Under the pieces are notes generated by a model that saw nothing but the letters and a program-made list of their open reading frames with translations, was not told where the DNA came from and ran no database searches. Source: Planctomycetaceae bacterium (GTDB lineage Bacteria; Planctomycetota; Planctomycetia; Planctomycetales; Planctomycetaceae). Taken from it: a stretch of DNA of 34,855 nucleotides. This document shows positions 7,150-34,850 of the stretch, in pieces. The translations under genes and the position numbers were made by a program. Position 1 is the first letter of the stretch; each line of letters begins with the position of its first letter. The stretch is from assembly GCA_027489895.1 (NCBI GenBank), contig JAIXZD010000457.1, forward strand, positions 1-34,855, in the 5' to 3' direction.

Positions 7150-9020
7150 CAGCTCCCACGTCATGGATGACGCGTTTTCTCCGGGTGCCTACCGCGCTGG
7201 CAGGAAGCCTCGCGCTGACGGCCCTCTGCCTCGTGCTCGCCCACTCACTGGACAGTCGCGCCCTCGCCGCGCCGCCCGGCCCCATTAAAACGTCCTCACC
7301 GTCCGCGCACTCCGCCCTCGATGAACTCGATCGCTCGATTCTCGGGGCACCGGTAAGGACCCTGCCCTCCCAGCGGGTCGCCCCGGCGACCTCAATCACC
7401 CGGCGCAGTCGTTCAATCATAACGCTCGCCGCGGACGAACAGCCCGCAACCGACACCGCGCCGGTCGACAAACCAGCCGCGAATGCTACCCCGGCCCGCA
7501 CGCCCCCCCTCAACAAACGCCCCACGCCTGCCGAGCCGCATCCGCAAGGGCTCGATCAGACCGGCGAAGACATGCCCCAGATCAAGAACCTCGCCGACTA
7601 CGACTTCGACGCGGCCCAGCTGGATCTCCCGCCCCTCCCCGAGATCGGCCCCGAAGCCCCCTCAACCGGCGAGCCGCTCTCACTCGACGAAGTCCTCACG
7701 TCGGTGGAAACCACCTTTCCGCTCCTCATCGGTGCGCTCCAGGAACGCGGGATTGCCGATGGGGAACTCGTCGCCGCGCTCGGCGCGTTCGACCTGTCGA
7801 TCTCGGGCTCGGCGCTGCAGACTCCGGCCGGGTTCTACGACAACTACCGGGCCGACCTGAAGCTCGAACAGCAGACCACCGCGAACGGAGCCAAGGTCTT
7901 CGGCGGTTACAAATTTGGCCGAGGTCACTTCCCGGAATGGTTTGGCGACCGTCAGACCTACGACGGCGGCGCCTTCCAGGGCGGCGTGTTACTCCCGCTG
8001 CTTCGTGGAGCACCCATCGACAAGAAGCGGGCCGATCTCTACAAGGCCCGCATCGGCCGCCAGACAGCCGAACCTGCCATTCAGCGGGCCCGCATCGAGT
8101 ATGTCCGCAATGCCTCCCGTGCCTACTGGGATTGGGTCGCTGCCTCGCAGACCGTGCGAGTCGGACAAGACCTGCTCGATATCGCCGTCGAGCGGGATGG
8201 GTTCATCGCCCAACAGGTCGAGATCGGGGCGATCGTGCCGATCGAGCGGATCGACAACCGCCGCGTCCTCACCAGCCGTCAGGCCAAGCTGATCGACTTC
8301 CGTCGCAAATCGCAGGCGACGGCCATCAAGCTCTCGCTCTACTACCGAAATGAAACCGGTACGCCCCTCCTGACGCGGATCGATCGTGCCCCTGTCGGTT
8401 TTCCCGAGTTCGACGAACCCGATGCCCGGTTGCTCCTCGCGGAAGGACTCGAGGTCGCCGCCAACAACCGTCCTGAAATCGTACAGATTCAGCTCCAGCG
8501 CCAACGGGCCGGCATCGATCTCGAAGTCGCCCGCAACAGTCGGCTGCCAACACTCGATGCCGTCGCCCAGGCGAGTCAGAACGTGGGTGGCCCGACCGAC
8601 AAGTTCGACAAGAGCCAGGCCGTTGTCGAAGCCGGGGTGATGTTCGATGTTCCCCTCCAGCGCCGTCAGGCCCGGGGCGATATCCAGAAGACCACCGCGC
8701 AACTCGCCCGGCTCGCCCAGCAACTGGAGTACGCCCGAAACATCGTCACGACCGAAGTCCAGGAAGCGGTCGTGAACCTCTCCGCCAGCTACCAGCAGGT
8801 CGACCGCACGCGGGAAAGCGTCGTCCTCGCCGAGCGAATGGAGCAGGCCGAGCGAGCCCGCTTCGAACTTGGCCAGGGGACGACGAACATCCTCGTCGTC
8901 AACCTCCGCGAACTCGCCACCGCCGACGCCCGCCTGCTCCTCGTCGAGGAAACCAGCGAATTCTTCCGCGCCTGGGCCGACTACCGCGCCGCCGTCGGCC
9001 AGGGCAACACCGAAGAGTAA
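7146..9020 (+). CDS. TolC-like outer-membrane efflux/secretion channel
   Basis: The 624-residue protein is the third member of the cassette and should form the trimeric outer-membrane and periplasmic tunnel. The ATG at 7146 overlaps the adaptor stop. Residues 1-42 (LAGSLALTALCLVLAHSL...ALAA) are a signal peptide. A low-complexity Ala/Pro/Thr-rich stretch of about 120 residues precedes the channel domain, unusually long for the family. The outer membrane efflux protein repeats begin at LSLDEVLTSVETTFP and recur near RLLLAEGLEVAANNRPEIVQIQLQ; the helical parts contain the usual ARIEYVRNASRAYWDWVAASQ and QEAVVNLSASYQQVDRTRESV patterns. A second-half helix ends NILVVNLRELATADARLL. The gene is followed by a cluster of intergenic repeats and then convergent hisB. 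Confidence 0.92.
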   Translation: MTAPTSWMTRFLRVPTALAGSLALTALCLVLAHSLDSRALAAPPGPIKTSSPSAHSALDELDRSILGAPVRTLPSQRVAPATSITRRSRSIITLAADEQPATDTAPVDKPAANATPARTPPLNKRPTPAEPHPQGLDQTGEDMPQIKNLADYDFDAAQLDLPPLPEIGPEAPSTGEPLSLDEVLTSVETTFPLLIGALQERGIADGELVAALGAFDLSISGSALQTPAGFYDNYRADLKLEQQTTANGAKVFGGYKFGRGHFPEWFGDRQTYDGGAFQGGVLLPLLRGAPIDKKRADLYKARIGRQTAEPAIQRARIEYVRNASRAYWDWVAASQTVRVGQDLLDIAVERDGFIAQQVEIGAIVPIERIDNRRVLTSRQAKLIDFRRKSQATAIKLSLYYRNETGTPLLTRIDRAPVGFPEFDEPDARLLLAEGLEVAANNRPEIVQIQLQRQRAGIDLEVARNSRLPTLDAVAQASQNVGGPTDKFDKSQAVVEAGVMFDVPLQRRQARGDIQKTTAQLARLAQQLEYARNIVTTEVQEAVVNLSASYQQVDRTRESVVLAERMEQAERARFELGQGTTNILVVNLRELATADARLLLVEETSEFFRAWADYRAAVGQGNTEE

Positions 9021-15226: not shown

Positions 15227-18200
15227 CTAGTCGACATCCGTCAGCGGCACATCCAGCCCGCTCGACAGCGTCGAACCGATCGACGACCAGAACAGATCGA
15301 GGTCATTCGGTTCGGCCGACTCGTCCGCAGCCGTCCCAATCTCGCCGACCGTTTCGTCATCGTCGTCGGTGGCACCACCAGCCGTCGCCGGCTTCGCGAC
15401 CGGAACCGCAACCGCCGTCCCGATCAGTCGATCCACCGCAGAACTTTCGACCGAATCATTCGTCGTCAACGTTGCCGTCACCGTCGGAGAGACAACCGAC
15501 GCGGTGGCGACCACGGCACTTGCTGTCGTCGGAGTGGCCGAGGCACTGCTCGCCGCCGCCGTCGCGAAGAACGGCCCCTGCGGAACGAACGACCGTGCCG
15601 GATCGAAGAACGCAAAGCCCAGACTGTTGTGCTGTTCCCAGATTCCACCCGGAGTCGCCAGCACGGCGTCCCGAATGGCCGGGCTTTCCACATACAGGTG
15701 GACCCCCGAGTTCTTGTTGTACAACCGGAAGATCTCGATCGTCCCCGAAACCTGAACCGGATAAACGAACGGCTCGTTCAGCTCGTATCGCCACCCGATC
15801 CGGTTGTAGTTCGGATCGGTCACCGGAACGAGACCCACGAGGTAATCCCGCTCGGCCTGGTTCGTGGTGTAGTAGTGACGTCCCGTCTCCAGGTTGTACA
15901 ACCGGAAGATCGGCAGCGCCCCAGGCAGCGGATTGAACCCCAATGCGAAGCCGGTCTGATTGACTGCCTCGTTCTGGTACCCGCCGTTGAGTGCCGCGTT
16001 GAACTCCAGCGCGTTCGTCGTGAAGAAGTGATAGTCGGCCGACGGGTTGTACGCTCGCAGGAACCGCACCTTCTGAATCTGCGTCGGATCGAGAGCATTC
16101 ACATTGATCGTGAACGTTTCGGTCAGCGTGTTGCTGCCCCCGTTGTCCGTCCCGCCACTGTCTCGCACCGTGAACGAGAACGAGGTCGTTCCCGTCGTCA
16201 GCCCGACCGGTCGGAACTGCAATCCCTGCAACTCGGCCAGAGTCAACTGCAGACCGACGAACAACTGCGTCCGTCCATCCGCCTGCGTCATCACCCCCAG
16301 AGCCGGGTTCGGTAGTGCGCTGACCGTGTACACCAGCGTCTGCGGATTCTCATCCGCTGTCGGCCCCGGCACGTAGGACAGGTTGCCCAGTCCCATCGAG
16401 ACCTGTGCCTGATCCTGCCGCAGATTGACCGTGTTCGTCGCCGGACCGGTCACCCGCCGCGGCGCGTCGTTCACCGGAGTATAGGTCAGCGTGACCGTCC
16501 CGGTGGCCGACTTGAAGTCATCCACGCCATTCGACCGGCCGTTGTCCCGCACCACGTACATGAACGTCGCCACTCCGTTGAAGTCGGCCGCGGGCGTGAA
16601 CACCACGTTCGAGCCGACAATCGCCACCGATCCACCCACCGGGTCGCCCACGCTCACCAGGGTGAGCGTCTGGGCCGGCGGGATGAGCGGTTCGGTCATC
16701 GAGTACGGGCTGTTCGTCGCGACCGCGTCATTCCCCAGCAGTTGCGAGATCGCAATCGAAATCGTGTTGTCTTCCAGCAGCAGGTTCGGGCTGATCGGGA
16801 ACGCATCGGCCCCCGCGATCGGCGCGTCGTTGTACGCCAACGTCACGATCGAGAACGTCCGTTCCACCACGCCGTCGTCCTGCGTGTTCGCAATCAGATC
16901 GACCCCGCTGTCGAACACCCGCACCGTCACCACCGCGGTGCCGCTGATATCGCCCCGCGTTTGGTAAGCGATCGACGCCGTTCGCGTTGCCGCGTTGAAC
17001 GTCAGCACCGGCTGCTGGCCCGTCACGAACATTCCGGGCGTGTCGTTGAACAGCAGTTGCGCCCGCAATCCGTTGGCATGAGCCGGGTTCGAGTCGCCAA
17101 TTCCCGTCAGCGTGATCGTCTGCGGACCAACCCAACCCAGGTGGTTCACATCGCCAATCGGATCGAGGTTCGGGTTCACGTTGCTCGGTGCGAACGTCAC
17201 ATTGAACGTCCGCGTGGTCGTCCCGTTGTCGGCGGCCGTCGCCAGGTTGTTGTCCAACCCGCCGTCTTCCACCGTCACCGTCACCTGCACCGTCCCCGCA
17301 ACACCGAACGCCTGGCCCCCGTTGAACGGCAGCAGCGACAGCGAACCGGTCGAGCCACCGGCGTACGAGACCGAAATCGGACTCGCCACCACGCCCGCCG
17401 TTCCACCCGTCACTGCGGCGGTCACCCGCAGCGGCTGCTGAATCTCACTACCACCCGCGGCAATTCCGGCCAGCGGAATCACCTGGCCCGACGGGATGAT
17501 CCCCGTGTAGTTCACGTCGGTGGGCTGCGTCATCACCGGCACATCGTTCCGCGGCAGAATCCGCACTCGGATGTACCGCGTCACCGACTGGTCATCCGGT
17601 TCATCCGAATTCTGATCGTCGTTGAACACCCCGTTGAACCCGGCATCGGTCACCGTGATCGCGATCGTCACCACGGTCTCAACCGCGATCGGCTGGTTCG
17701 GCAGCGTCACCAGTTGCAGCGTGCCCGTGCTGTTGGGAGACACATAAGTCACCGGATTGACGATCGTCAGCACCGTCGGATTGTCACTCACCGCCGTCAC
17801 CCGCAGCGCCTGAGTCTCCGTATTGTCGTAGTTGAAGTTCGGCGCCGGCGGGTTGTTCAGGTTGCGTCCACCCGCCGTAATCCCCGTCAACGGAACGGCC
17901 AGCACGGCCGTGTCGTTGATTAGCGCCGCCAGCGGGAACGCACCATCGGGGAGCCGCTTCGGATTCATCGGGTCGACATCGTTCAGCACCGGCGTCCCGA
18001 ACGGGGTATCCGGCTGATGCACGCCGACTTGTCCCTGGTCTTCCCAGATCGTCAACCGGCCGCCCGTCCCATTCAGCGGCTGATCCAGCGTCGGGTCTTC
18101 CAGCAGCAGTGTCACGCTGAACTGAATCGTTCCATCCGCCCGGTTGGGCAGCAGCGTGTTGTTGGCGAGGTCCGTCATCAGCCCCGTCACATTCGTCGCT

Positions 18201-21200
18201 GCCTGTCGCGACGTCACGGTCACGTTGTACGTCCCCGGTCGGAACGTCGAGGCCGCCACGAACTGAATCTCGTTGGTGTTCTCGTTGAAGATGAACGTGT
18301 AGTCCGGCCCGGCGGCTAGCGGAACAGCTGGGCCACCGCTTGCCGGGGTCCGCGTCAGCGCGAACGCCGACGACAACACCGTGGCTCGGTCGATCCCCAC
18401 TCCCACATCCGCCAGTTGCAGCCGGATCGTCGTCACATCGGCCGCACTGCGGTCGCGAATCACCACGCTGTTTCGGGCACTGTCGCGGTCCAGTCGCGGA
18501 TCGCCCGACCACATTCCCGCACTCTGATCCAGCCGCAACTGGAACGCGGCATCCGGCTCGGTCGTCACCAGGTCCTTGAACGACAGGATCGGCTGCGTGA
18601 AGTCCGCCCGCTCAATCGCTCCGCGGTCCTTGACGATGTTCGCCCCAATCCCCGGGAAGCTCGCCTGGCTCGGATCGTCTTTCCGCAACTGGCCATACAG
18701 GTCGTTCTCGGGAGCAATGATCGGCGACACGGGAATCGCCAGAGGCGACAGCACCGTCGTCATCGCCGGTCGGTCCGAGATCGAGTTCTTCGAACTGTCA
18801 ATCGCCGACGATCCGGTCGTGAGATAGAAGTTCCGCGTCGTCGAACTGACAAACATCGCACTACCACCCGCCACGACGATCGAGTCGGTCCCGGTATTCC
18901 CGGCCGCTCCCACCCCGTGGAACGCCGTCGTTTCGATCACCGTATTGGCAAAAGAGCTCCCGGCAACCGCAATCCCCGTCGTCATCCCGGTGGCCGAGCC
19001 AGTCGGCGCTCCCGAGAGCAGGTTGTTGAGCAGCGTCGGCGCGGCGTTCGCACCCACGTTGATCCCAGTCGTCGCGGAAACGATCGTGTTGTTCACGATC
19101 CGGCCATACGGCACGACCGCAGCCGGCAGGTTCGCTCCGCCCGCATCCCCGGCGAAGTTGATCCCCGTCACCCCTTCGGTGATCAGGTTGTTCGCCACGA
19201 CCACGCCCGTCGCCAGCCGCGAACTGTTCAGCGTCGGCAGACCAATCGCCGATCCAGGCCGGGCAATGTTCGTCTGGTTGTCCCGGCTCGCGGCGACGAT
19301 ATCTATCCCCGTCGTCTGCGAGTTCCGAATGATGTTGTTCGCGATGATAAACTGACCCTGATCGCGGATCGGGTTTTGATCCCCAATCGACCCGGTCGAT
19401 CCAATCGCCGGAGTCACCGAGACGCGAACCGCATCCCAGGCAATTCCACTCCCCGTCGCAAACGTCCCATCTTGGGCCGGTTGATTCACAACCGGTGGAA
19501 CCTGAACCAGTCCCACCTGCAGCCGCATTTGCAGGTTCGCCAGGTTTGTGAACCCAGCGTTCGTTGCTGCCGCAACGAGGTCGATCGCCACGGTCCGCCA
19601 CGCACCCAGCGTGATCTCCGGCGTGAAGATCGTATACCAATCCGTTCCGTTCTCGCTGATCGACACCCCTGTTCCAAACGCGGGCTGGCCTAACCCCAGA
19701 TTCGGATCGGTAAAGTTCGTCGGCAGCGACACCACTGGCGTCCGCAGGTTGTTGTAAGCGAAGTTGAGGAACGCTGTCGGCAGTCCGACAATGCTACCCA
19801 GGTTGAACGTCGCGTACGAAATTCCGACGACCGACCCCAAGAGCGGAGTGTTCGGGTTCGCGGCATCCATGAACAGTGCGTGTGATCCTTCAAACGGGTG
19901 GATGTGCGTTTCTTCATGCACATCATCACCGACAGAACTGCCCGGCGGCACATACGCCGGCGTGGTGACTTCCGTCAGCACCTGCACGCGACCATTCGTC
20001 GAGACAATCACTGGCGCCGTCGTGTTGACATCATTGCCGCCGCCAGTTCCCACCGACGTCGTTCCGTCGAAGAACTCGGAATACGAGTTGTTGTTCGGAA
20101 CCGTGGCCGGGAACTGTACGAAGCGGTCGTCTGTGTCGAAAAGTCGTCCAATCCCGAGGTCGGAGGATGCCGGATCCAGAGGCGCGGCATACTCCGTCCC
20201 CCGGCGAATCGTCAGCGTGTAGGGCCCGGTTTCCACCTTCATCGGAACCGAATCACTCGTAGGCAGCGCGGTGTTGAACGTCACGTCCGACTGCCCGGCG
20301 AGCCCACCCGTCACCATCTCGCCGCGTTCCGCGAACCCGATGATGATGTCGTCGACGTAGAACCCTTCAAAGTCGTTGTTTTGAGCCCGCCGCTCATCGT
20401 TAAAGTTCCCGAAGATCGCCCCCGAGATATTGTTCAGCGGATCCAGATCGCCATCCCCGTCCACATCACGCAGGCTCTGGGTGCTCAACCGTCCGGCGGT
20501 GCTGAAGTCAAATCGCAGCTGCAGGTTCCCCTGTCCAACGAAGTCGGACAAATCGACGCGGGCCTGCCGCCAGCCGTTCGATGTACCGCCCGCCTCGTCA
20601 AACAACTCCTGAACACGCTGGTTCTCGTTCGTCGACAGATTTCGCGACACCGACTGGAAGGCCGGAAGTTCGCCATCGGCCGAATCCGCCGCGGAAGCCG
20701 CGCTGTTGTTCGTCGCCAGCAGCCGCCAGGTCAATCCATTGTCCGAACTGATCAGCACTCGCGCCGCATCGCGCATCGTCGAGTCCTTGATATCCGTCGA
20801 TTCCGTTTCCAGGACGTAGTTGAAGTACAGGGTCGGCTTGGCCGTCGCTGAATATCCGGCCAGGCTGAACTGACCTGTTCTCAAACTGCCGAACGCCCCG
20901 CCCGGCAGGTTGTAGTTCCCGTTTCGACTGCCCGTCGCACCAATGTTCGGGTTTGCTGTCAACTCCTCCTGCCACCGGTAGTTGCCGCCCGACTGCACGC
21001 CGAACTGTTCCGTTCCGCTGTCGTAAGGCAGATATCGATTGTTGTTGACCGGATTGTCGTTCCACTCCTGTAGCCCGAACCACATGCTCGCGCCGCCCTG
21101 CCGCTCGTTAGAGTCCTCCAGCGAGCCGTCTCCATATGGAATCACCAGATCGTCCACCGTCGTCGACCGGGTATTGTCGAACGTGGGATTGACCCCATGC

Positions 21201-24200
21201 CCGGCCTCGGCCCGACGATTCAGCGTCGGGTGCCAAAGGTTCACGTCCAAAGGCGAGAACGCCAGCCCCGTCGCACCCGCGGTCAGCACGTTCGAGATAT
21301 TGCTGTCACCCACACCATCGGCATTCGTATCGAACACGTTGGTCACGAGAGTGTTTGTGGTCGGGTTAATGACCACCAGTCGTCCCGCCGTGGTGATCGC
21401 GAAGAACATTCCACGGAACCGCGAGTTCTCCAGGTTTTGAGGAGCCGCGGTCAGGCCCTGAAAGCCGCCGACCGTGGCAGAGAAGTCAGCCAGAACGGTC
21501 GAGTTCGCGTTGAAATCAATGAGTTCCTGGCCGGTTCCCTGAGTCTTTCCACCCGGGCTCACCCGAATAAAACGCCCGTCACTCGTCACCCCAAACAACG
21601 TGCCCGAACTGTCCTGCTGAAACTGCAGGCCGGTCACCAGCGGATTTACCGTCCCCGTCGGCACCGTCACCCGCCCGAAGTAACCGAAGTTCGTATCCGT
21701 GTGGGCCTGGCTGGCTGCACCGTTCGCCGCTCCTGCCGCCGTGCCCCCATCCGCCGCGCGGTACAGCTTCGATTGGCCACCGTCATTGACGATGTACCAC
21801 AGGTCGTCGTAGTCCCCGACATTTGATCGCCGGAATGCCAGCGCGGACACCGAATTGGTCGTCGTCTGATTATTCGTCGGGTTTGTGGCGGCACGGTCCG
21901 CAATCCCGTCGTTCGAGGACGAGATGATTTCTCCCGTTCCGGTGCTCAGTTCCGACAGAACACCGGCAGTCCCGGTATTGTTGCCCGTCGTTCCGGAGTA
22001 GGCATAGAGCCGTCCGTCCGGTCGCATGTCGATATCACCGACGACCAGTCCGTTGCCGTTGTAATTTCTATTGAAACTCGTCTCAAACGTCCCGCGGAAC
22101 GCATCGTATGTCAACAGCCCGGAACTGGTCGAAACATACAGCGTCACGTCTTCCAGCCCGAACGTGGTCGCATGCGTGCTCAGCGCCTGTTCCGTGCTGA
22201 TATCGATGAGTTGCGGAACCACGGGCGTCACCTGACCGCCCGACGTATAACCACTATGACCAATGTGATCTTCGACAATTCTCCGGATCGAACTCACGGG
22301 CTCCAGACGCGTCAGCGAGTTCGTCGCCGTCGAGTTGAACGTCGCATTCATGGCGTTTGGCAACCGCCGGTTCGACGACACCGCCACAAAGTACCGGAAC
22401 GGGTGATTCACTCCGCCCGGATTCGTCACCGTCCCCGAGGTGTAACCCGCCGTCGAACCCACCTGACTCGGCACGCCCGCCGGCAACTGCGCCGGTCCGA
22501 TGAACGGATCCAGCGCCCCGTTCGACCCACGACGCATGTCGTCGAAGTCGGCTCCCTGCCCCGCTGCCGACTGGTCATCCAGAATCTGCCCATCGCGAGC
22601 CACCAGGATCAGCCGACCCGCCGTGTCGAACACCGACAGGGTCGTGTCCGGCCGCGCATACCCGTCGGCGTAGTCGATGTCGAACACCGTCGCAAACGTC
22701 TTCCCGCCGCCGTTGACGCCGCCGATTTCCTGGATCAGGTCGTAGTTGAGGACGAAGCTGTACCAGTCGACGTCCGTCACCGACGACAACTGGCCGCTAA
22801 CGGTCACCGTATTCCGGTCCGTCTGCAGCAGGTTCCCCAGATCCTGGGCACCACCAATCCCGTTGTTCGCTGTGTCATCAGCTTCCGCAGCTTCACTCAC
22901 CAGCGGCGAGTTCCGCGGCAGGCCGATCACCTGAATCCCGTTCACCGCATAACGCACATCGGCAAACTGCACCGTCGAGCCGGGCTTGTCGTCCCGCTGG
23001 TTGACGCGCACCCGCAATTCGTAGTGTCCGCCGGTCTTCCCTTGAACACTCGTCACCCGGATGAAGAACGTATCGAGTGTCCCCGCGGTTCCCGGCAGAA
23101 TCACCCGCATCCCCGCGTCGTACGCGTTCGTCGAGTAGTAATCACCGCCCCGGTACGTGTCTTTCTGCAGGTCGCCATTCGCACCCGCCAATAGCACCGT
23201 ATCTTTCGAGGCCGCCAGCACGCTGCCGGTGTTCGTGTTCGGCAACTGCGACGAATCCGAGGTAGCCAGAACATTCCCTGCCGCATCCAGCAGCTCGACG
23301 AACGTATCCAGCGACGAACTCGAATTGTCGATGTCGATCCAGACTTCCGACCCCGAATAGGCCGACACCTGGTAGATGTCCGCATCGGTCGGCCGGTTCT
23401 CCGAAATGTACCCGTGAACTTCGAAGCCCAGTCGGCGATTATCGTCGCCGCCCTTTTCGCGGATCGCTTCCTGCAGGTCGGTGCTGGTAATCCCGGAAGC
23501 CGTCACGACGTTCGGGGCGAGCGTCCCAAGGTTCTCGGCTTTCGCCGTCGTCCCGTTCTTGTCGCCGCCCGTCAGCCCCGCTTCGCGTTCGTTGTAGACC
23601 GCCACGTTGCGATCGTTGCTGAATCGTTCAAACACGAGGCCCCGCCACGACCCCGGCACCGCCGACGAGGCCGAGCCATCTTCGTTGGTATCCTTGGTCG
23701 GCAGACCCCGCAGGTTGAAGCTCGCCCCCACCGAGTCATCGGCGAGCGCCGTCAACACCACGGGGTAGCCCGGCTGACCCACCACCTGCACCGTCCCGCC
23801 GATCCGGTCATCGATATCCGCCGGTGTCCCCGTCGCGATGATCGCCGCGGTTCCCGTCGTGAACTTGACGACCAGGCTTTCCGTGGGGTTACTCTGCAGC
23901 CGCAATCCCGTCTTGGTGTGCAGATTCCCGACGAAGATCACGCCACTCACCAGGTGGACAATGTCCGTGTCATCCCACACGCTTTCGACGCTGATTTCTT
24001 CCGCCCGCACCCGCACCCCGCTCTGCGTATTCCCCGCGTTGATGATCGAGGGATCCACACTGAACCGGTTCGCGCGCAGCAGCGGGCCAAAGTTGTTGTC
24101 GTACTCCAGACGCCGCGCAATCAGCCCCGTTTGCCGCCCCACATCGGGACGCGGCGTGTACATCATCGAGTTCGCGTTGATGCTGATCGCCGCGCCCATG

Positions 24201-27200
24201 TTGTTCAGGAAGTCGTTCCCGACGAGGATCGGCTGCGCTCCGCTGACATAAATCGTCGAGGAGTCGTTCGTCCCCCGGCTGTTCCGGTTGTTTCCACCGG
24301 CACTGCCCGTGTCGTTCAGATCGAACCGCGTGTTCGCGATCCGCACATTCGCCTGACGAATCTCCACGGTGTTGAAGTTACGCGTGTCGCCTTCAATCGC
24401 CGACGAACCCCCCCCGAACGCAATGTACGCATTGTCGATGCTACCGCTCGACGCCTGCATGAACACCAGCCCGCTCCAGTCGCCCGCCGCGGACGCCAGC
24501 GACGTGCTGTTCGTCGGATCGATATCCGGCAGGTTTCCATTGGTGTCGAACGTGCCACCGGCACCAAAACGCGGATCCGCGAGCGAAGTGAACACGATCG
24601 GCCGCGTCGCGGTCCCTTCCGCGATCAGCTGGCTTGGGCCGCGATCCATTTCGATTCGTGCGCTGCTCAGTTTGACCACGACGCCCGGGTCAACCTTCAA
24701 CCGTCCCACGTTCCGCGCCCGAGCGGTCCCGCTCGTCGCATCCAGCCCGCCCGCGCCACCCGTCAGAACCAGGTTCTCCGCAATCACATAGGCGATATCC
24801 GTGCTGGCAAACCGGGCCGGAACATCGAGCTGATTCGGGCTGCTCCCCAGCTCTGTACCGATTCGTACAAACAGTCCGTTCGTCGTGTTGTTCTGCAGCG
24901 TGTTGCCGTGGACATCCGGACCAGAGCGACCCAGGCGATCGTCGAAGGCATTCGGGTCGGCCGAAATCGCCGCCCCCGCGCTGAACTGGATCGTGTTGTT
25001 CGTCACCGCGGGACGCGTCCCCGCCGGAGCCGACCCATCAAACCGGCGACTGTCAATGTGCACCGGCGCAAACGTCTGCAGTTGGGCATTGACCCGGACT
25101 TCACCACCCCCGTACGTCAGCGTCGCCCCGTTCACCGAGTTGAGGAACGCCTTCTTCGTGGTAGCCGCTTCGACAACCGTTGAATCCGAGTCGCCCCGGA
25201 ACACCAGCCCGCCCCACTGTCCGCCCTGCAGGTTCGGCCCCGTGTCGTCGCTGTTGCCGCCCACGCTGTCGTTGTGGAAGCTTGTCAACTGGACGTTTCG
25301 TCCCGGCGTTCCCAGCACTTGCAGGGCGGCGCCAGACCGATTCACAAGACCGCTGGAGCTTCCCACTTCTACGTTCGCCGCGCGGAACTTCAGGACAGCG
25401 CCTTCGTCGATCATCACCGTGGTCCGCTGGGGAATCGCGAAAAACTCGCCATCCTGCAGCGGATTGCCATCGAGATCCGTGCCGACCAGATACGGCCGGG
25501 CCGTCGCGGGCGACGTCCCATTCCCAAGGAGCCGGACCAGAACATTCCCCGTCACCGGATCGGTCGCCGTGCGGTTGGCCGCCGCGGCAGCCAGGGCAGC
25601 GGAAATCGTGTTGAACGGCATCGCGAGCGACCCATCGCCCCCGCCCGTCGCCATCTTGTCGACAAAGTAGGTTCGCGACGTCCCGGAACTGACCGACGCT
25701 GCCGCCGTCTGGAACCAGAAGTTGTACAGCCCGCCTGCTTTGCCATCCGCGTCGCCATCGACGGCCGAACCCTGCAGGTCCGTGATCCCGCCCTGCGACG
25801 CCGTGCTCGTGAAGTTCACCTGCAACTGGTATGCGCCATCCGTCCGTCCACCCGAACCGCTGTTGATGACTTCCGGGTTGAACTTGTCGTTCCCCTGGCT
25901 GGTCACCGCCACGAAAAACGTCGTCGGGCCCGTGATGTCCGACAACTCGAGTTCGATCTGCGAATCGGTGTTGTTGAAGTCGTCGTTCCGCGCCACGAGC
26001 GTTCGCGTCGATCCATCCGGGCTCTGCCGGTACACCGTCAGCAGCGTATCGAGGCCCGTCGCCCCGGCCGCCTGCAGCGCCGCCACCGCGTTGATCTTCA
26101 CCTTGCCCGGTTCGGTCACCTGGAACGAATACAGGTCGATATCCGCACCGGTCTTGGCGTAGATCGCTTCCAGATGCACATCGTCGTAGGGGAAGGGATA
26201 GACTTCGCCGTCCACGGCCGAGCCATTCAGCCCACTCCCGCCCATCACCGAGGGCAAGTCGTACGCATGGCCCAGACCCAGCGCATGCCCGATTTCGTGC
26301 AGCGCTACTCCCCACCAGCCCCCGCCCACGTTATTGCTGCTGCCGAATGCCCCGGAGTTCATCACCACCAGGCCGCCCCCGGCAATCCCCCCGACCTGCG
26401 GGTAGTTCGGATTGACCGCGCGGATATCCCCCGTCACCACACCCAGCCCCGAGCCCGCCGTTTCCACGAACCGCAGGCCATGTGCCTTCCCGAAAATCTC
26501 GAAAATCATCCGCGCCATCTGCCGCTGTTCCGGCGTGATCGCGTTGTTCAGCGGCTGACCCGAGGTTGGGTCAGTTCCATACTGAACCGGGAAGTAGTAC
26601 TGCCGCACTGCCAGCGTATTCGCGTTCGCCGGAGCGGAACTCCCGATCCCATGCGACTCCACCGGCACATCGCGATGACCCGGCTCGTCCTGTCCACCCG
26701 GCTGACCAGGAACCAAAAGTGTCCCGGTCGGATTCTTGGGCGAAATGGCCCCTGTCACCACCTGCGTCGCCACGCCCAGCGTTCCCAGAGGTTGTGCCCC
26801 GGTGAAAATGCTGTTCGGGTTCGAGTTGATCGTCGCCGTCTCGGCTTCAACCAGCGGAGGATTGGCCAGCGGTGCGGTGTAGGTCCCCACCTGCAGCCGA
26901 TAGGTTTGGTTGTCCTGAATCGCTCCGGCGCCGAACGTCACCACCGCGAGGCCGGTGGCCGGCGTGTACACCACGCCCGTCGCTGCTGTCCGCGTTCCCG
27001 TCGCCGTGTTGATCAGGCTGTAAAAGCCCGGCGTCTGGGCGCTCGCGGCATTCAGCGGGTCGTTCTGGTTGAAGTAAACGTGGACCACATCCCGAGCCTG
27101 CGACAGCACGCCCGTCCCCGGATCGCGAGTGATCGGCTGCGGCACGACCGAGACGATTTGCGCCCCGAGGTTCATCTTGAACCGGAACGTCTCAGGTGTC

Positions 27201-27685
27201 CCCAACGTCTCGGTGGCTGTTCCCAGCCCCGCCGTCATCCGAATCTCGTACGCGTCGTCCAGCAGCGGCTGCGCGAACCGGATCACCACTTCATTCTGGT
27301 TTGGGAAGTCGTTCCGGCCGATATAGCCGATCTGCACCTGCTGGTCAGTCTGAGTGCCCGTCCCGCCAAACGCATCGTTGAACCCGCCGCTGCGCCACAC
27401 CGAAATGTTCGGTGCAATCGTCCCCGGGCTGACGGTGCTGCCCGGGCTGAACCGCAGCGTGATCTGCTGAGGGTTCTCCGTCAGTACCTCGTCACGACGC
27501 AGGAAGTCGTCCCCCTGCGGGCTCTTGAGCGCCGCCACGAAGTCGAATGCGAGCATCTGTCGCGATTCGAGGCGTTCCACGTCGCCGGGCGACCGGCGGG
27601 ACCGCAAGGCTTTCGCACGTCGCTGCCGCGACATGCTCCGCGTGAACGTGTTCTTAACGGACGCCAGCCAGGAAGTGAGAAGCAT
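15227..27685 (-). CDS. Giant (4152-residue) secreted multidomain protein with M10-like metalloprotease site
   Basis: The ATG at 27685 (MLLTSWLASVKNTF) has AAAGG about 9 nt upstream; an in-frame extension to 27796 is unlikely. Residues 1-46 are basic and end in ERLESRQMLA, the LEPR-like N-terminal motif of planctomycete giant exported proteins. After two Ig-like domains, HEIGHALGLGH (463-473) and a nearby SVMGG Met-turn form a matrixin/serralysin-type zinc site. PPC-like jelly-roll domains follow (DIDLYSF.. near 517, DADIYQV.., DVDWYSF..), with right-handed beta-helix segments (about 760-1290 and 2780-2900), a propeller-like section, a GFYVDDIIIGF jelly-roll near 2440, four cadherin-like/tandem-95 repeats (VNDAP, NDAPIAG; about 3380-3870) and a DUF5648-like unit (YHFFTTN, HYYTTNQAERDYL; about 3870-4030). 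The tail is Ala/Thr/Ser-rich, then acidic, ending PNDLDLFWSS...DVPLTDVD. No RTX nonapeptides, cell-wall anchor or membrane anchor is seen. The likely site is the cell surface or outside; adhesion or matrix processing is inference. Confidence 0.93.
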   Translation of the reverse strand: MLLTSWLASVKNTFTRSMSRQRRAKALRSRRSPGDVERLESRQMLAFDFVAALKSPQGDDFLRRDEVLTENPQQITLRFSPGSTVSPGTIAPNISVWRSGGFNDAFGGTGTQTDQQVQIGYIGRNDFPNQNEVVIRFAQPLLDDAYEIRMTAGLGTATETLGTPETFRFKMNLGAQIVSVVPQPITRDPGTGVLSQARDVVHVYFNQNDPLNAASAQTPGFYSLINTATGTRTAATGVVYTPATGLAVVTFGAGAIQDNQTYRLQVGTYTAPLANPPLVEAETATINSNPNSIFTGAQPLGTLGVATQVVTGAISPKNPTGTLLVPGQPGGQDEPGHRDVPVESHGIGSSAPANANTLAVRQYYFPVQYGTDPTSGQPLNNAITPEQRQMARMIFEIFGKAHGLRFVETAGSGLGVVTGDIRAVNPNYPQVGGIAGGGLVVMNSGAFGSSNNVGGGWWGVALHEIGHALGLGHAYDLPSVMGGSGLNGSAVDGEVYPFPYDDVHLEAIYAKTGADIDLYSFQVTEPGKVKINAVAALQAAGATGLDTLLTVYRQSPDGSTRTLVARNDDFNNTDSQIELELSDITGPTTFFVAVTSQGNDKFNPEVINSGSGGRTDGAYQLQVNFTSTASQGGITDLQGSAVDGDADGKAGGLYNFWFQTAAASVSSGTSRTYFVDKMATGGGDGSLAMPFNTISAALAAAAANRTATDPVTGNVLVRLLGNGTSPATARPYLVGTDLDGNPLQDGEFFAIPQRTTVMIDEGAVLKFRAANVEVGSSSGLVNRSGAALQVLGTPGRNVQLTSFHNDSVGGNSDDTGPNLQGGQWGGLVFRGDSDSTVVEAATTKKAFLNSVNGATLTYGGGEVRVNAQLQTFAPVHIDSRRFDGSAPAGTRPAVTNNTIQFSAGAAISADPNAFDDRLGRSGPDVHGNTLQNNTTNGLFVRIGTELGSSPNQLDVPARFASTDIAYVIAENLVLTGGAGGLDATSGTARARNVGRLKVDPGVVVKLSSARIEMDRGPSQLIAEGTATRPIVFTSLADPRFGAGGTFDTNGNLPDIDPTNSTSLASAAGDWSGLVFMQASSGSIDNAYIAFGGGSSAIEGDTRNFNTVEIRQANVRIANTRFDLNDTGSAGGNNRNSRGTNDSSTIYVSGAQPILVGNDFLNNMGAAISINANSMMYTPRPDVGRQTGLIARRLEYDNNFGPLLRANRFSVDPSIINAGNTQSGVRVRAEEISVESVWDDTDIVHLVSGVIFVGNLHTKTGLRLQSNPTESLVVKFTTGTAAIIATGTPADIDDRIGGTVQVVGQPGYPVVLTALADDSVGASFNLRGLPTKDTNEDGSASSAVPGSWRGLVFERFSNDRNVAVYNEREAGLTGGDKNGTTAKAENLGTLAPNVVTASGITSTDLQEAIREKGGDDNRRLGFEVHGYISENRPTDADIYQVSAYSGSEVWIDIDNSSSSLDTFVELLDAAGNVLATSDSSQLPNTNTGSVLAASKDTVLLAGANGDLQKDTYRGGDYYSTNAYDAGMRVILPGTAGTLDTFFIRVTSVQGKTGGHYELRVRVNQRDDKPGSTVQFADVRYAVNGIQVIGLPRNSPLVSEAAEADDTANNGIGGAQDLGNLLQTDRNTVTVSGQLSSVTDVDWYSFVLNYDLIQEIGGVNGGGKTFATVFDIDYADGYARPDTTLSVFDTAGRLILVARDGQILDDQSAAGQGADFDDMRRGSNGALDPFIGPAQLPAGVPSQVGSTAGYTSGTVTNPGGVNHPFRYFVAVSSNRRLPNAMNATFNSTATNSLTRLEPVSSIRRIVEDHIGHSGYTSGGQVTPVVPQLIDISTEQALSTHATTFGLEDVTLYVSTSSGLLTYDAFRGTFETSFNRNYNGNGLVVGDIDMRPDGRLYAYSGTTGNNTGTAGVLSELSTGTGEIISSSNDGIADRAATNPTNNQTTTNSVSALAFRRSNVGDYDDLWYIVNDGGQSKLYRAADGGTAAGAANGAASQAHTDTNFGYFGRVTVPTGTVNPLVTGLQFQQDSSGTLFGVTSDGRFIRVSPGGKTQGTGQELIDFNANSTVLADFSATVGGFQGLTAAPQNLENSRFRGMFFAITTAGRLVVINPTTNTLVTNVFDTNADGVGDSNISNVLTAGATGLAFSPLDVNLWHPTLNRRAEAGHGVNPTFDNTRSTTVDDLVIPYGDGSLEDSNERQGGASMWFGLQEWNDNPVNNNRYLPYDSGTEQFGVQSGGNYRWQEELTANPNIGATGSRNGNYNLPGGAFGSLRTGQFSLAGYSATAKPTLYFNYVLETESTDIKDSTMRDAARVLISSDNGLTWRLLATNNSAASAADSADGELPAFQSVSRNLSTNENQRVQELFDEAGGTSNGWRQARVDLSDFVGQGNLQLRFDFSTAGRLSTQSLRDVDGDGDLDPLNNISGAIFGNFNDERRAQNNDFEGFYVDDIIIGFAERGEMVTGGLAGQSDVTFNTALPTSDSVPMKVETGPYTLTIRRGTEYAAPLDPASSDLGIGRLFDTDDRFVQFPATVPNNNSYSEFFDGTTSVGTGGGNDVNTTAPVIVSTNGRVQVLTEVTTPAYVPPGSSVGDDVHEETHIHPFEGSHALFMDAANPNTPLLGSVVGISYATFNLGSIVGLPTAFLNFAYNNLRTPVVSLPTNFTDPNLGLGQPAFGTGVSISENGTDWYTIFTPEITLGAWRTVAIDLVAAATNAGFTNLANLQMRLQVGLVQVPPVVNQPAQDGTFATGSGIAWDAVRVSVTPAIGSTGSIGDQNPIRDQGQFIIANNIIRNSQTTGIDIVAASRDNQTNIARPGSAIGLPTLNSSRLATGVVVANNLITEGVTGINFAGDAGGANLPAAVVPYGRIVNNTIVSATTGINVGANAAPTLLNNLLSGAPTGSATGMTTGIAVAGSSFANTVIETTAFHGVGAAGNTGTDSIVVAGGSAMFVSSTTRNFYLTTGSSAIDSSKNSISDRPAMTTVLSPLAIPVSPIIAPENDLYGQLRKDDPSQASFPGIGANIVKDRGAIERADFTQPILSFKDLVTTEPDAAFQLRLDQSAGMWSGDPRLDRDSARNSVVIRDRSAADVTTIRLQLADVGVGIDRATVLSSAFALTRTPASGGPAVPLAAGPDYTFIFNENTNEIQFVAASTFRPGTYNVTVTSRQAATNVTGLMTDLANNTLLPNRADGTIQFSVTLLLEDPTLDQPLNGTGGRLTIWEDQGQVGVHQPDTPFGTPVLNDVDPMNPKRLPDGAFPLAALINDTAVLAVPLTGITAGGRNLNNPPAPNFNYDNTETQALRVTAVSDNPTVLTIVNPVTYVSPNSTGTLQLVTLPNQPIAVETVVTIAITVTDAGFNGVFNDDQNSDEPDDQSVTRYIRVRILPRNDVPVMTQPTDVNYTGIIPSGQVIPLAGIAAGGSEIQQPLRVTAAVTGGTAGVVASPISVSYAGGSTGSLSLLPFNGGQAFGVAGTVQVTVTVEDGGLDNNLATAADNGTTTRTFNVTFAPSNVNPNLDPIGDVNHLGWVGPQTITLTGIGDSNPAHANGLRAQLLFNDTPGMFVTGQQPVLTFNAATRTASIAYQTRGDISGTAVVTVRVFDSGVDLIANTQDDGVVERTFSIVTLAYNDAPIAGADAFPISPNLLLEDNTISIAISQLLGNDAVATNSPYSMTEPLIPPAQTLTLVSVGDPVGGSVAIVGSNVVFTPAADFNGVATFMYVVRDNGRSNGVDDFKSATGTVTLTYTPVNDAPRRVTGPATNTVNLRQDQAQVSMGLGNLSYVPGPTADENPQTLVYTVSALPNPALGVMTQADGRTQLFVGLQLTLAELQGLQFRPVGLTTGTTSFSFTVRDSGGTDNGGSNTLTETFTINVNALDPTQIQKVRFLRAYNPSADYHFFTTNALEFNAALNGGYQNEAVNQTGFALGFNPLPGALPIFRLYNLETGRHYYTTNQAERDYLVGLVPVTDPNYNRIGWRYELNEPFVYPVQVSGTIEIFRLYNKNSGVHLYVESPAIRDAVLATPGGIWEQHNSLGFAFFDPARSFVPQGPFFATAAASSASATPTTASAVVATASVVSPTVTATLTTNDSVESSAVDRLIGTAVAVPVAKPATAGGATDDDDETVGEIGTAADESAEPNDLDLFWSSIGSTLSSGLDVPLTDVD

Positions 27686-28070
27686 GGGAACCGACCTTTG
27701 AAAACGGCGAGCAACTCTGTGTGGGAAGACCGAAGCGGCAGGGACTTGGTTCAGCGACGGCAACGTGCTTGGGCTCTGAACGGGGCGACTGATCAATCGG
27801 GTTTGGTTTCACATCCGGTGGTGTCCGACTCCAGTGGTTGGAAACAGCCAACGCACCGGGACAGACTCTGCCGGGAAGAGCACCGTGGCGCACCGGCTGT
27901 GTCTCGGCCCTCCCGGGAGACAACAGTGGTGGCTGAACGATGCATCGCCCGCCTGGGGAGAAAGGCGGGCTATCGAGGGGGTAGTTCCACTACACCGCCC
28001 GCGTGAACCCTTTGCAAGACAAATTGACGGCTTCAAGACAACCTCGCGAATGCAGGCTAAGTCATTATGA
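27686..28070 (-). promoter_or_regulatory. Long structured 5' leader of the giant gene (candidate cis-regulatory RNA)
   Basis: No gene is seen between the candidate promoter and the giant start, about 385 nt. In RNA sense GCGGGC (28002-27997), GCCCGCC (27970-27964) and GGCGGGC (27953-27947) are three segments of which the middle one can pair with either neighbour, a switch-like arrangement. Other hairpins are GTAGT-GGA-ACTAC (27993-27981), the palindrome CGATGCATCG (27946-27937), CTCCCGGGAG, and GTTGG-CTGTTT-CCAAC near 27840-27855. CGCACCGG is repeated (27852-27859 and 27889-27896). I could not match it to a known riboswitch class. Confidence 0.4.
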
Positions 28071-29227: not shown

Positions 29228-29699
29228 CGGTCGAACTTTCAGAACAGGTCCACGCACGGCCAGGACAGTATCTCCACCGGCAATCTCCCCCAGATTAGAC
29301 CGGCGCCAACGCACCCCGTCGAGTCGCCAGCCTGCACTTGCGACCCCGTTTCCTCGTGGAATGTTTGATCTGGCGAATCGCAAATCACGTTCGTTACCGT
29401 GATAAACCAAGTGATGGATCGATCGCTGGGTGGACACAGCCCCTCGCGGCGCACCAACACAGCCCAAGAAAGATTTTTCGGATCGCCAACGAACCCGGTC
29501 AATTTGACGTTCAAGAAGCCGTGAGCAGTGGCGAAATCCAAGGCAGAATGCATTCCAGCCCTGTTGAAGCCGTGGGCATGTGGTTCGGTATTTGTGGACG
29601 GGTGAGCCATGGTGGGCAGTGCCCACTTTACGCCGCACCCAGGCAGAAATCACTTAGGAACGGACGAAGTCGGGGCACAGACTTCCGGAGGAGGGAACG
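29228..29699. other. 472-bp divergent intergenic region
   Basis: No credible gene lies here. It separates the minus-strand lipoprotein from the plus-strand YiiX-like gene and contains one inverted copy of the GGTGGGCA palindrome repeat at 29601-29629. Promoters for both genes should be here, but no clear box pair stands out. Confidence 0.4.
29601..29629 (-). repeat. GGTGGGCA-N-TGCCCACC palindromic repeat (copy 1, reverse orientation)
   Basis: GGTGAGCCAT is followed by GGTGGGCA (29611-29618), a centre base and TGCCCAC (29620-29626). The same unit with a flanking GGTGAGC tail recurs in the doublet at 31643-31803 and at 34821-34850, fixing orientation. This copy is reversed and has lost the GTAGGG end. 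Confidence 0.75.
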
Positions 29700-30434: not shown

Positions 30435-30656
30435 ATGATGCTGTCTGAACTCTTCAAGGTGATATTCACCGAGCTGATCGAAGAGGGAGTCCGATACGCC
30501 TTCAGGCGGTGTCTGGGGCTCAGCGGGGAAGTCCACCAGCACAGGGCATCGCGCTGGAGTCGTTCGCGTTTACTGAGGCAACAACAAGCTCCCGTGGCAT
30601 ATGAAATCGCTGGGCACAGGTGCGATGGGGCTGCTAACTTGAAGACGCAATCGTGA
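30435..30656 (+). CDS. Possible small protein overlapping the tilS start
   Basis: The 73-residue frame starts MMLSELFKVIFTELIEEGVRYAFRR and stops with a TGA that overlaps the GTG start of tilS (GTGA), the arrangement of translational coupling. The first 30 residues look like an amphipathic helix and are protein-like; the rest is Arg/His/Gln-rich and is not. No good ribosome site precedes it. It may be a remnant, a leader peptide for tilS or chance. I do not recognise it. Confidence 0.25.
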   Translation: MMLSELFKVIFTELIEEGVRYAFRRCLGLSGEVHQHRASRWSRSRLLRQQQAPVAYEIAGHRCDGAANLKTQS

Positions 30657-31648
30657 CGCCTGAACATGCCGTCGACGAGGCCATTCGCCGACACAGGCTG
30701 GCCGGCTCGCGGCTGCTGGTGGCCGTCTCGGGGGGGGCCGACAGCGTCGCGCTGCTGCGGGCGGTGGTGGCGCTTGCCCGGCGGTACCAGGTCGAGCCAG
30801 AGGTCGCGCACTTCAATCATCGCTGGCGAGGTGCCGATTCCGATGCCGACGAGCGGTTCGTTGTGAAACTGGGGGAGGGCTTGGGCCTGCCGGTGCATGT
30901 GCGGCGGGCCGAATCGCCACCGCTCTCCGAAGGCTGCTCTGAAGAGGCTGCTCGCGATTTGCGGTATGCGTTTCTGGAACAGGTTGCGAGCGACCGTTCT
31001 CTTCCGACGATTCTCGTGGGGCATCAGCAGCGGGATCTTGTCGAAACGGTTCTGTTTCAACTGATCCGCGGGTCCGGCCTAAGGGGGCTGACTGGCATGC
31101 GGGCCGAGCGGACGCTGTCCAGCGGAAAACGCCTGATCCGACCGCTCCTGGCCGTGACGCGGGAGTCGATCGAAACGTACCTTCGCGAACTGGGGCAGGA
31201 GTATCGAACCGATGTGACGAACCTCGACCCGCGGTTTGCCCGGGGACGATTGCGAACGCGGATCCTGCCCGAGTGCGAAGCGCTCAACCCGCGAGTTGAC
31301 GCGGCGATTGCCCGTCTCGCCGAGCAGGCGGCCGAATGGCGCGACGAGACCGAGGCGAACGCCGCCCGTCTGTTGGCCCGGTCGCTCATGCCGACAGAGG
31401 ACGGTACCATTCGACTCGACCGCACTGTCTTGAACGATGCGACCGATGGTTCGCGGAGAGAACTGTTCCTCGCCCTCTGGCGCAGCCAAGGTTGGAGCGA
31501 GCAGTCGATGTCGGCCGAACACTGGAAGCGGCTCTCGGAACTGGCCGAAATCGACGGCGCGGTCTCCCTGCCCGGCCACCTGCAAGCTTGCTCCCACTCC
31601 CAATGGCTGACGATCGTGCCCGGTCCTGAGCACCGCTGCCGTGGGTAG
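30653..31648 (+). CDS. tilS: tRNA(Ile)-lysidine synthetase
   Basis: The enzyme attaches lysine to the wobble C34 of tRNA-Ile(CAU) using ATP, changing both codon reading and charging. The product is 331 residues from a GTG at 30653; no in-frame ATG lies upstream, and the start puts the P-loop at the expected place. The PP-loop is LLVAVSGGADS (SGGADS at 26-31). AHFNHRWRGADSDADE and GHQQRDLVETVLFQLIRGSGLRGLTGM follow the N-type ATP pyrophosphatase pattern, then RPLL..TRESIETYLRELG and NLDPRFARGRLRTRILP. The C-terminal part keeps the helical substrate-binding region, but the protein is about 100 residues shorter than E. coli TilS and probably lacks the last domain. The last codon and TAG stop fall inside the left arm of a repeat doublet. 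Confidence 0.95.
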   Translation: MTPEHAVDEAIRRHRLAGSRLLVAVSGGADSVALLRAVVALARRYQVEPEVAHFNHRWRGADSDADERFVVKLGEGLGLPVHVRRAESPPLSEGCSEEAARDLRYAFLEQVASDRSLPTILVGHQQRDLVETVLFQLIRGSGLRGLTGMRAERTLSSGKRLIRPLLAVTRESIETYLRELGQEYRTDVTNLDPRFARGRLRTRILPECEALNPRVDAAIARLAEQAAEWRDETEANAARLLARSLMPTEDGTIRLDRTVLNDATDGSRRELFLALWRSQGWSEQSMSAEHWKRLSELAEIDGAVSLPGHLQACSHSQWLTIVPGPEHRCRG

Positions 31649-31803
31649 GGTGGGCACTGCCCACCAATGCTCACCAGTCCCCATCTGCCGAACATCGTTT
31701 CTTCCGGCTCCAATCAACCCCCCAGTTCGGGCGGACCAGCAATCCAATAGACTTCTGGTTGTCCGCATTGGTGAGCCTTGGTGGGCAGTGCCCACCCTAC
31801 CCC
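31643..31803. repeat. Inverted doublet of the GGTGGGCA palindromic repeat (REPIN/MITE-like, 161 bp)
   Basis: The left arm (31643-31677) reads GGGTAGGGTGGGCACTGCCC then ACCAATGCTCACC; the right arm (31770-31803) is its reverse complement with one or two changes. The ~35-nt arms are separated by about 90 bp, and each arm is itself a palindrome (8-bp half-sites around one base). This is the architecture of a REP doublet. It occupies the gap between tilS and the DAHP synthase gene (321 bp in all). The rest of that gap holds a small hairpin AACCGG-CTA-CCGGTT at 31881-31895 and no gene. Confidence 0.8.
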
Positions 31804-32998: not shown

Positions 32999-33233
32999 GT
33001 GGGATAGGCTTCCTGCCTGTCAGTTCGCCGATGAGGCGGTGATGTTTTAGGACGATCGTTGAATTCGCGATGGAAACCCGAAGCGTCCGCGAGTGCCCCA
33101 GCGTGGATTCCGGGGAGATTGAGATCTGTCAGGAGAGCGGGGTCCCTCGCTCACGCTTCGAGGTTTCCAGAAGATCACTTTGTCCCCAGATTCAGTACGG
33201 CGAAGGCTTCGACAGGCTGGAAGCCTATCCCAC
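32999..33233. repeat. Nested inverted repeats (235 bp, MITE/REPIN-like) before the YgfZ-like gene
   Basis: The outer arms are 23 nt: GTGGGATAGGCTTCCTGCCT.. (32999-33021) and its reverse complement with one mismatch at 33211-33233. Nested inside is a second pair: GGAAACCCGAAGCGTCCGCG.. (33072-33093) and the reversed GGAAACCTCGAAGCGTGAGC.. (33146-33168). In the orientation given, the right inner copy contains a GTGA loop. Most of the element could be read in frame into the downstream gene, but the encoded residues are not family-like. Confidence 0.75.
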
Positions 33234-34698: not shown

Positions 34699-34809
34699 CG
34701 ATCAATGTCAGGCTGCGTCAACACGGAGCAAGGCAAAAGTCAAAAGTCAAAAGTCAAAAGTGATGATTTCGGGCAGGCCCGACCTGTTTTTTCTGCCTGA
34801 CATTGATCG
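34699..34809. repeat. 111-bp element with 15-bp terminal inverted repeats and (CAAAAGT)4
   Basis: CGATCAATGTCAGGC (34699-34713) is perfectly reverse-complemented by GCCTGACATTGATCG (34795-34809). Inside lie four perfect tandem copies of CAAAAGT (34734-34761). No coding frame is credible. The size and ends are those of a miniature inverted-repeat element. Confidence 0.7.
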
Positions 34810-34820
34810 GTAGTCAACTA

Positions 34821-34850
34821 GTAGGGTGGGCACTGCCCACCAGCGCTCAC
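34821..34850 (+). repeat. GGTGGGCA-N-TGCCCACC palindromic repeat (copy 4)
   Basis: GTAGGGTGGGCACTGCCCAC followed by CAGCGCTCAC matches the left arm of the doublet at 31643. It is close to the right edge of the window, so a partner arm could lie just beyond. Confidence 0.75.

Follow-up and report, generated by a model that had tools for sequence, protein, structure and literature searches.

A long-form GTAG-type REPIN family of a planctomycete, probably spread by a RAYT clade found in other Planctomycetota and in Cyanobacteria

The inverted doublet between tilS and the DAHP synthase gene of a Planctomycetaceae bacterium (assembly GCA_027489895.1, contig JAIXZD010000457.1; the whole stretch of 34,855 nucleotides analysed is called the window) is very probably a GTAG-type REPIN, a non-autonomous miniature element that is or was spread by a RAYT of a clade whose genes are flanked by hairpins with the stem GGTGGGC. 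The window element belongs to a GTAG-type REPIN family. Its REP is a short palindrome with a 5' GTAG tag, dispersed in high copy number and mainly outside genes, inverted doublets with GTAG outward are over-represented, REPs in doublets are more conserved than singlets, and the same REP flanks RAYT genes in other genomes. Anatomy, copy number, doublet orientation, the sharp GTAG edge and the link between REP and RAYT clade in other genomes were each observed directly and are set out below.

The doublet is formed by two inverted copies of GTAGGGTGGGCACTGCCCACC with their GTAG ends outward (Table 1). The original prediction had described two internally palindromic, inverted arms of about 35 nt some 90 bp apart, in agreement with the arms measured here (31643-31676 and 31769-31802; 34 nt each, 97% complementary, 92 nt spacing). 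Each arm forms its own hairpin, GTAG-GGTGGGC-ACT-GCCCACC, and the whole doublet is predicted to fold as one long hairpin, with z scores of -9.6 as single-stranded DNA and -10.4 as RNA, each against 200 dinucleotide shuffles. A scan of the window at up to three mismatches returned four REP matches (29611-, 31645+, 31780- and 34821+; chance expectation 0 in 100 shuffles). Two of these had been taken for single copies; the one then placed at 29601 lies on the minus strand and is the right end of a second, decayed doublet, in which the sequence beside the left arm is still recognised by the interior profile (nhmmer E 2e-5), and the one at 34821 is a copy with an exact core that ends 14 nt short of the window end, where any partner would lie beyond the window. 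When TilS (331 residues) was searched against 20 relatives, the match reached query residue 301-325 in 19 of them and ended at 235 in one (G068), so the protein whose stop codon is supplied by the REP does not look truncated; lending of TAG stop codons to neighbouring genes is described as frequent for GTAG REPs in the text of PMC3733652.

Table 1. REP-derived features of the window (positions count from the first nucleotide of the window)
Feature	Position	Strand	Basis or context
REPIN, head-to-head REP doublet, 156 bp from GTAG to CTAC	31645..31800	.	between tilS and DAHP synthase
Left REP arm, exact core GTAGGGTGGGCACTGCCCACC	31645..31665	+	window scan
Right REP arm, exact core GTAGGGTGGGCACTGCCCACC	31780..31800	-	window scan
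B-type subterminal part, ANNGCTCACC ... TTTCTTCCGGCTTC	31666..31716	+	interior profile match E 2.8e-9, consensus
A-type subterminal part, ANNGCTCACC ... TTTGGATCGCTCACC	31727..31778	-	interior profile match E 6.1e-9
TAG stop of tilS frame 30653-31648, supplied by the GTAG of the REP	31646..31648	+	PP-loop domain in frame
REP arm, 2 mismatches, right end of second, decayed doublet 29425-29631	29611..29631	-	window scan
Decayed left arm of doublet 29425-29631, 6 mismatches to 21-nt core	29425..29445	+	interior profile; inverted-repeat listing at 68%
REP arm, exact core, cut off by window end	34821..34841	+	window scan

Copies were counted in the bacterium's own genome, a draft of 5.93 Mb in 575 contigs that is about 93% complete. 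At up to three mismatches the window REP had 355 matches (185 + 170) and the reversed pattern, used as a control, had 0, so the family is not confined to a handful of copies. So as not to favour repeat-rich contigs, sampling used 60 contigs picked by number together with the window (683,193 bases), the window itself having been chosen for its repeat. The number-chosen sample held 34 arms, of which 24, 7, 2 and 1 had 0, 1, 2 and 3 mismatches, and no arms with 4 or 5 mismatches were present in the 683,193 bases; matches at 6 mismatches numbered 17, against 14 in a Markov control. Doublets elsewhere, on which the original prediction also depended, were found in numbers: the number-chosen sample contained 10, spanning 156-212 bp, beside 14 singlets, and 24 doublets and 27 singlets were present in all 81 stretches, a set that includes 20 chosen for RAYTs or abundant repeats. 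The form proposed, that of a REP doublet, was borne out by orientation, GTAG facing outward in 10 of 10 and 24 of 24 doublets, respectively. With arms limited to three mismatches and singlets to those with room for a partner, doublet arms carried fewer mismatches than singlets both in the number-chosen sample (0.20 vs 0.77, p 0.03) and in all 81 stretches (0.15 vs 0.50, p 0.02). An excess of singlet decay at 6 mismatches (3.7 vs 0.75) was dropped, since matches at that level are no more than about what chance gives.

Conservation was profiled over 101 arms that had been required to start with GTAG. Information content was at most 0.29 bits outside the GTAG and near 2 bits across the 21-nt core; inward of the core followed two free positions, then GCTCACC, and then a gradual loss of conservation. 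The interiors have two types of half, A (...TTTGGATCGCTCACC) and B (...TTTCTTCCGGCTTC or CCCCCGGCTTC), and where both arms of a doublet were in register (38 doublets), an A half stood opposite a half of another kind in 26, the other 12 lacking A halves altogether. At arm positions 23-24 a maintained mismatch seemed possible, since none of 38 pairs matched and only 6 of 76 bases did so (23.9 in permutations; of 48 doublets, 10 had an arm out of register and were omitted). It was rejected as covariation: most A arms, but few B arms, carry GC at these positions, and the signal was gone when B arms were shuffled within the 26 A/non-A doublets (5 vs 5.6 matches, p 0.48). Pairing within the element beyond the core was also rejected, the 25 nt inside GCTCACC being as alike between doublets (0.41) as within the same doublet (0.39).

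In this genome the REPINs are 152-212 bp long, with one of 324, and a 31-nt pattern that includes GCTCACC occurs 141 + 119 times; at up to two mismatches the same pattern was absent from all 169 other genomes of the order. The bare 21-nt REP, at up to one mismatch, was present in 24 of 98 relatives, with up to 75 copies (G075) and a control that gave one match in 99 genomes, and some of these counts include REPs with other loops, such as the TTT-loop REPs carried by a RAYT of G015 (L293). The doublets listed for two of these relatives are compact, measuring 31-44 nt from start to start in G075 (18 doublets) and 49-56 nt in eight of nine GTAG-outward doublets of G074.

The proposed link of the repeat to RAYTs was confirmed in other genomes. 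In a Planctomycetota MAG (G054, JAADHY010000464), a RAYT gene (L060) has one exact window REP and one loop variant on either side, and in Paludisphaera soli (G070) a RAYT has the same stem upstream and a degenerate copy just downstream. Among the best 80 loci of a RAYT scan of named genomes, the 15 that resemble L060 most, L060 being one of them, include 13 with a GTAG-GGTGGGC hairpin within 700 nt, and these belong to Planctomycetota and to Cyanobacteria (e.g., Spirulina, Mojavia, Nodosilinea, Xenococcus and Oscillatoria). A tree was built from 78 of 86 frames, 8 short or broken ones being dropped, and excluded L062, L063 and L197, which duplicate rows that were used, as well as L068. In it, 11 of 15 GGTGGGC-flanked RAYTs fell into one 15-row clade (SH-aLRT 96), the other four rows of which had no detected stem or another stem, and all five GGCAGGC-flanked RAYTs, that of contig C304 of the own genome among them, formed a separate clade (SH-aLRT 98). 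The labels GGTGGGC, GGCAGGC, GGTCCGC and GTCAGGC were more clustered than in any of 500 shuffles; GGTGCGC and GGTACGC showed no clustering in this tree. Four GGTGGGC-flanked RAYTs (L057, L240, L242 and L274) are placed elsewhere in the tree, so that membership of the clade does not follow from the stem alone. In L060 and L057, the TAG of the flanking REP's GTAG was seen to serve as the RAYT gene's own stop codon at its 3' end.

The mechanism that we propose follows that of a known enzyme. The RAYT L060 matches the solved E. coli TnpAREP (4er8; E 5e-35, residues 1-169 of 191), and a C-terminal Gly-Glu pair, like the G160-E161 that contacts GTAG in E. coli TnpAREP according to the text of PMC8266576, was present in 6 of 8 proteins, their tails not being aligned to 4er8. 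The two inverted REP hairpins with GTAG outward would constitute a non-autonomous miniature element, and the enzyme that spreads or spread it would be a RAYT (TnpAREP) of the clade flanked by GTAG-GGTGGGC-ANN-GCCCACC. By analogy with what has been reported for E. coli TnpAREP, it may bind the GTAG hairpin on single-stranded DNA, cleave and rejoin, and such a RAYT would have built the population in this lineage. With RAYTs of this clade present in other Planctomycetota and in Cyanobacteria and missing from this assembly, the population would be either an orphan or one whose RAYT went unassembled.

The own genome yielded six Y1_Tnp matches, five of which pass the NCBIfam cut-off for REP_Tyr_transpos, the sixth (L031) being nearer to IS200. 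A RAYT with a matching flanking repeat, for which a search of this genome had been advised, was not among them: at up to five mismatches none of the six loci contained a window-type REP (the L032 locus is cut by a contig end), and a search of the assembly with the L060 RAYT at E up to 10 returned nothing nearer than the RAYT of contig C304 (49%). RAYTs flanked by the window REP were thus seen only in other genomes; in this one the cognate enzyme has either been lost or escaped assembly, and, the assembly being a draft, its absence is not final. Three of the RAYTs present are bracketed by hairpin types particular to them, GTGCCACTGGC-NNN-GCCAGTG at C525 (L033), CATGCTTGC..GCAAGCATG at C335 (L035) and GTAGGGCAGGCTCCCGCCTGCC at C304, and the hairpins near the first two and near the RAYT of C80 (L034) recur 16, 18 and 11 times, respectively, in the 683-kb sample. 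A RAYT relic with three stops was noted at C78:14234-14404 (L056, 14087-14404), preceded by a C304-type REP.

That the cognate RAYT is present in the organism and merely missing from the 575-contig, ~93% complete draft is a serious alternative to loss, to which we give somewhat less than an even chance. A gene flanked by a 350-copy repeat assembles poorly, repeats flanking a RAYT as in G054 would break short-read contigs, and the near-invariant ends, with no decayed tail at 4-5 mismatches, suggest a working recogniser. Against this, REP copies with no RAYT close by are also seen where assembly is nearly complete: G074, in 3 contigs and 99% complete, has 25 REP copies, each of them 62 kb or more away from its 6 RAYT-like matches. 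In G091 the RAYT shares 73% identity over 115 residues with its P. soli counterpart; its frame is broken, with a stop and a second overlapping frame, and window-type REPs at 1-2 mismatches flank it on either side. Orphan REP populations are not unique to this draft. Copies at the ends of contigs C236 and C223 were considered as edges of a collapsed repeat hiding a RAYT and rejected, the two ends having in common a 481-bp stretch at 94% identity that probably reflects strain variants or a duplication. These ends (L046 9179-9651 and L051 3273-3751) indicate that the assembly may hold strain variants. Also on C236, the left half of a window-type element is followed at once by a C304-type REPIN at 7306-7512 (L043, 7214-7512). 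The arrangement is no more than suggestive of a nested insertion, as which it had first been read, because no right half turned up on the far side.

The ends of the elements are held while the interiors drift. Interiors of 32 doublets were at best 82% and at median 59% identical (shuffled sequence 51%), and no recent sister copies were seen among them. Between nearest-neighbour doublets, preselected at up to three mismatches per end, interiors differed by a median of 19% (minimum 15%) and the 21-nt ends by 2.3%, so that 0.97 of 42 end positions differed against 8.2 expected at the interior rate. A search of 61 contigs with interior-only profiles, trained partly on the same contigs, found 28 places, of which 21 stood beside a perfect 21-nt end and 3 beside an end with one mismatch; of the remainder, one each had 2, 3 and 6 mismatches (the last being 29425) and one was internal without an end. 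Either transposition that requires the ends or use by the host could hold them, and the lack of recent sister copies leans weakly towards host use.

On these grounds, the 2.3% end against 19% interior divergence and the missing sister copies, a REPIN population of more than 300 copies, with a long form private to one lineage, might be kept intact without its transposase, the ends being under selection in place for use of the hairpins by the host, a reading that we hold to be doubtful. Equally tentative is its counterpart for the doublets themselves, that they are immobile now and kept as host elements acting as RNA or single-strand DNA hairpins at gene ends. Besides the conserved ends, placement speaks for it: by a crude gene caller whose frames cover 89% of bases, called frames contained 19 of 51 elements and their edges 3; among the 29 intergenic ones, the nearer gene end was a 3' end for 22 (against 46% of random intergenic positions), and 12 stood between convergent genes (19% for random positions). 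However, a 3' bias is reported for ordinary REPs too in the text of PMC3733652, the window doublet had no called terminator-like site and no match among Rfam families, and the doublets with conserved ends had been preselected. It counts against spread by a RAYT that neither empty sites nor insertion events were observed.

The weakest alternative to spread by a RAYT of the GGTGGGC clade is that the RAYT of C304 acts in trans on the window family in addition to its own GTAGGGCAGGC-type REP. This RAYT has an intact open frame of 203 aa with HUH and Y-N-P motifs, matches 4er8 at E 3.7e-43 and is the nearest to L060 in the genome, the two REPs have GTAG and a G-rich 7-8 bp stem in common, and a window-type arm (C304:852) lies ~3 kb away on the same contig; we nevertheless regard action in trans as improbable, because the gene is flanked on both sides by its own REP, GTAGGGCAGGCTCCCGCCTGCC, with 33 matches genome-wide against 355, because C304 belongs to the separate GGCAGGC clade, and because the loops differ (4 nt TCCC vs 3 nt ACT), loop bases being described in the text of PMC8266576 as critical in a tested group 3 TnpAREP.

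Elements of this kind are known. The original prediction considered a planctomycete REPIN system worth describing, but planctomycete GTAG REPs are already in the literature: an account from 2013 covers GTAG REPs, their dimers in head-to-head arrangement and cases from planctomycetes, with R. baltica named among species with several REP families and GTAG given as the mark of RAYT-linked REPs (text of PMC3733652). Across the texts of PMC3733652, PMC8266576, PMC3116915, PMC8049555 and PMC6006769, planctomycete and cyanobacterial GTAG REPs, head-to-head dimers, RAYT-specific REP types and REPIN genomes without a RAYT are already in print, E. coli strains having REPs without a RAYT in the account of PMC8049555. 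The sequence of the window REP was not met in the running text of this literature, to which, figures and supplements standing outside it, the comparison was limited, and we do not claim it as unpublished. As the text of PMC3116915 describes for the REPINs of Pseudomonas fluorescens SBW25, the window family has inverted REPs in many copies, conserved ends, a less conserved spacer, a single-strand hairpin and singlets more decayed than doublets; it differs in its length of 152-212 bp with two unlike halves, against 71 bp between invariant 16-mers in GI of SBW25, and in that its matching RAYT was not found in its own assembly. With GTAG REP families 1-24, compared by their description in PMC3733652 and without assignment of a family number, it has in common the GTAG tag, 7-bp stem, 3-nt loop, head-to-head dimers, intergenic and 3' bias and lent TAG stops, and planctomycete and cyanobacterial families exist among them; the interior between its arms is longer than the 20-100 bp usual for the spacing of REP dimers there. 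The RAYTs flanked by the window REP resemble E. coli group 2 TnpAREP (4er8) over the residues given above, whereas E. coli REPs are long, with a bulge in the stem, and window REPs short and perfect, like the group 3 REPs in the text of PMC8266576.

What is new is the window REP family, its ~165-bp form, absent from 169 relatives of the order, and its RAYT clade; that is, a new family of a known kind of element, which has a private form of unusual length and whose enzyme is apparently missing, and in which one REP sequence is tied to one RAYT clade common to Planctomycetota and Cyanobacteria. The genomes form a series with the enzyme present (G054, Paludisphaera soli), broken (G091) and apparently absent (G074 and the own genome), which makes the conservation of REPIN ends, by continued transposition or by host use, testable outside Proteobacteria.

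Other repeats and one gene of the window were recorded in passing. A second, different pair of inverted hairpins, GTGGGATAGGCTTCCNGCCTGTC, lies at 32999-33021 and 33211-33233 (0 expected by chance); this hairpin occurs 19 times in the 683-kb sample, with four of five close pairs spaced 50-51 nt from start to start, and represents another REP-like family. Positions 34737-34792 are part of a further dispersed repeat (CCAGGTCGGGC..GCCCGACACC, TTTTGACTTTTGAC), with similar stretches on many contigs of the genome, and positions 15227-27796 (-) hold an unusually long open frame of 4189 codons.
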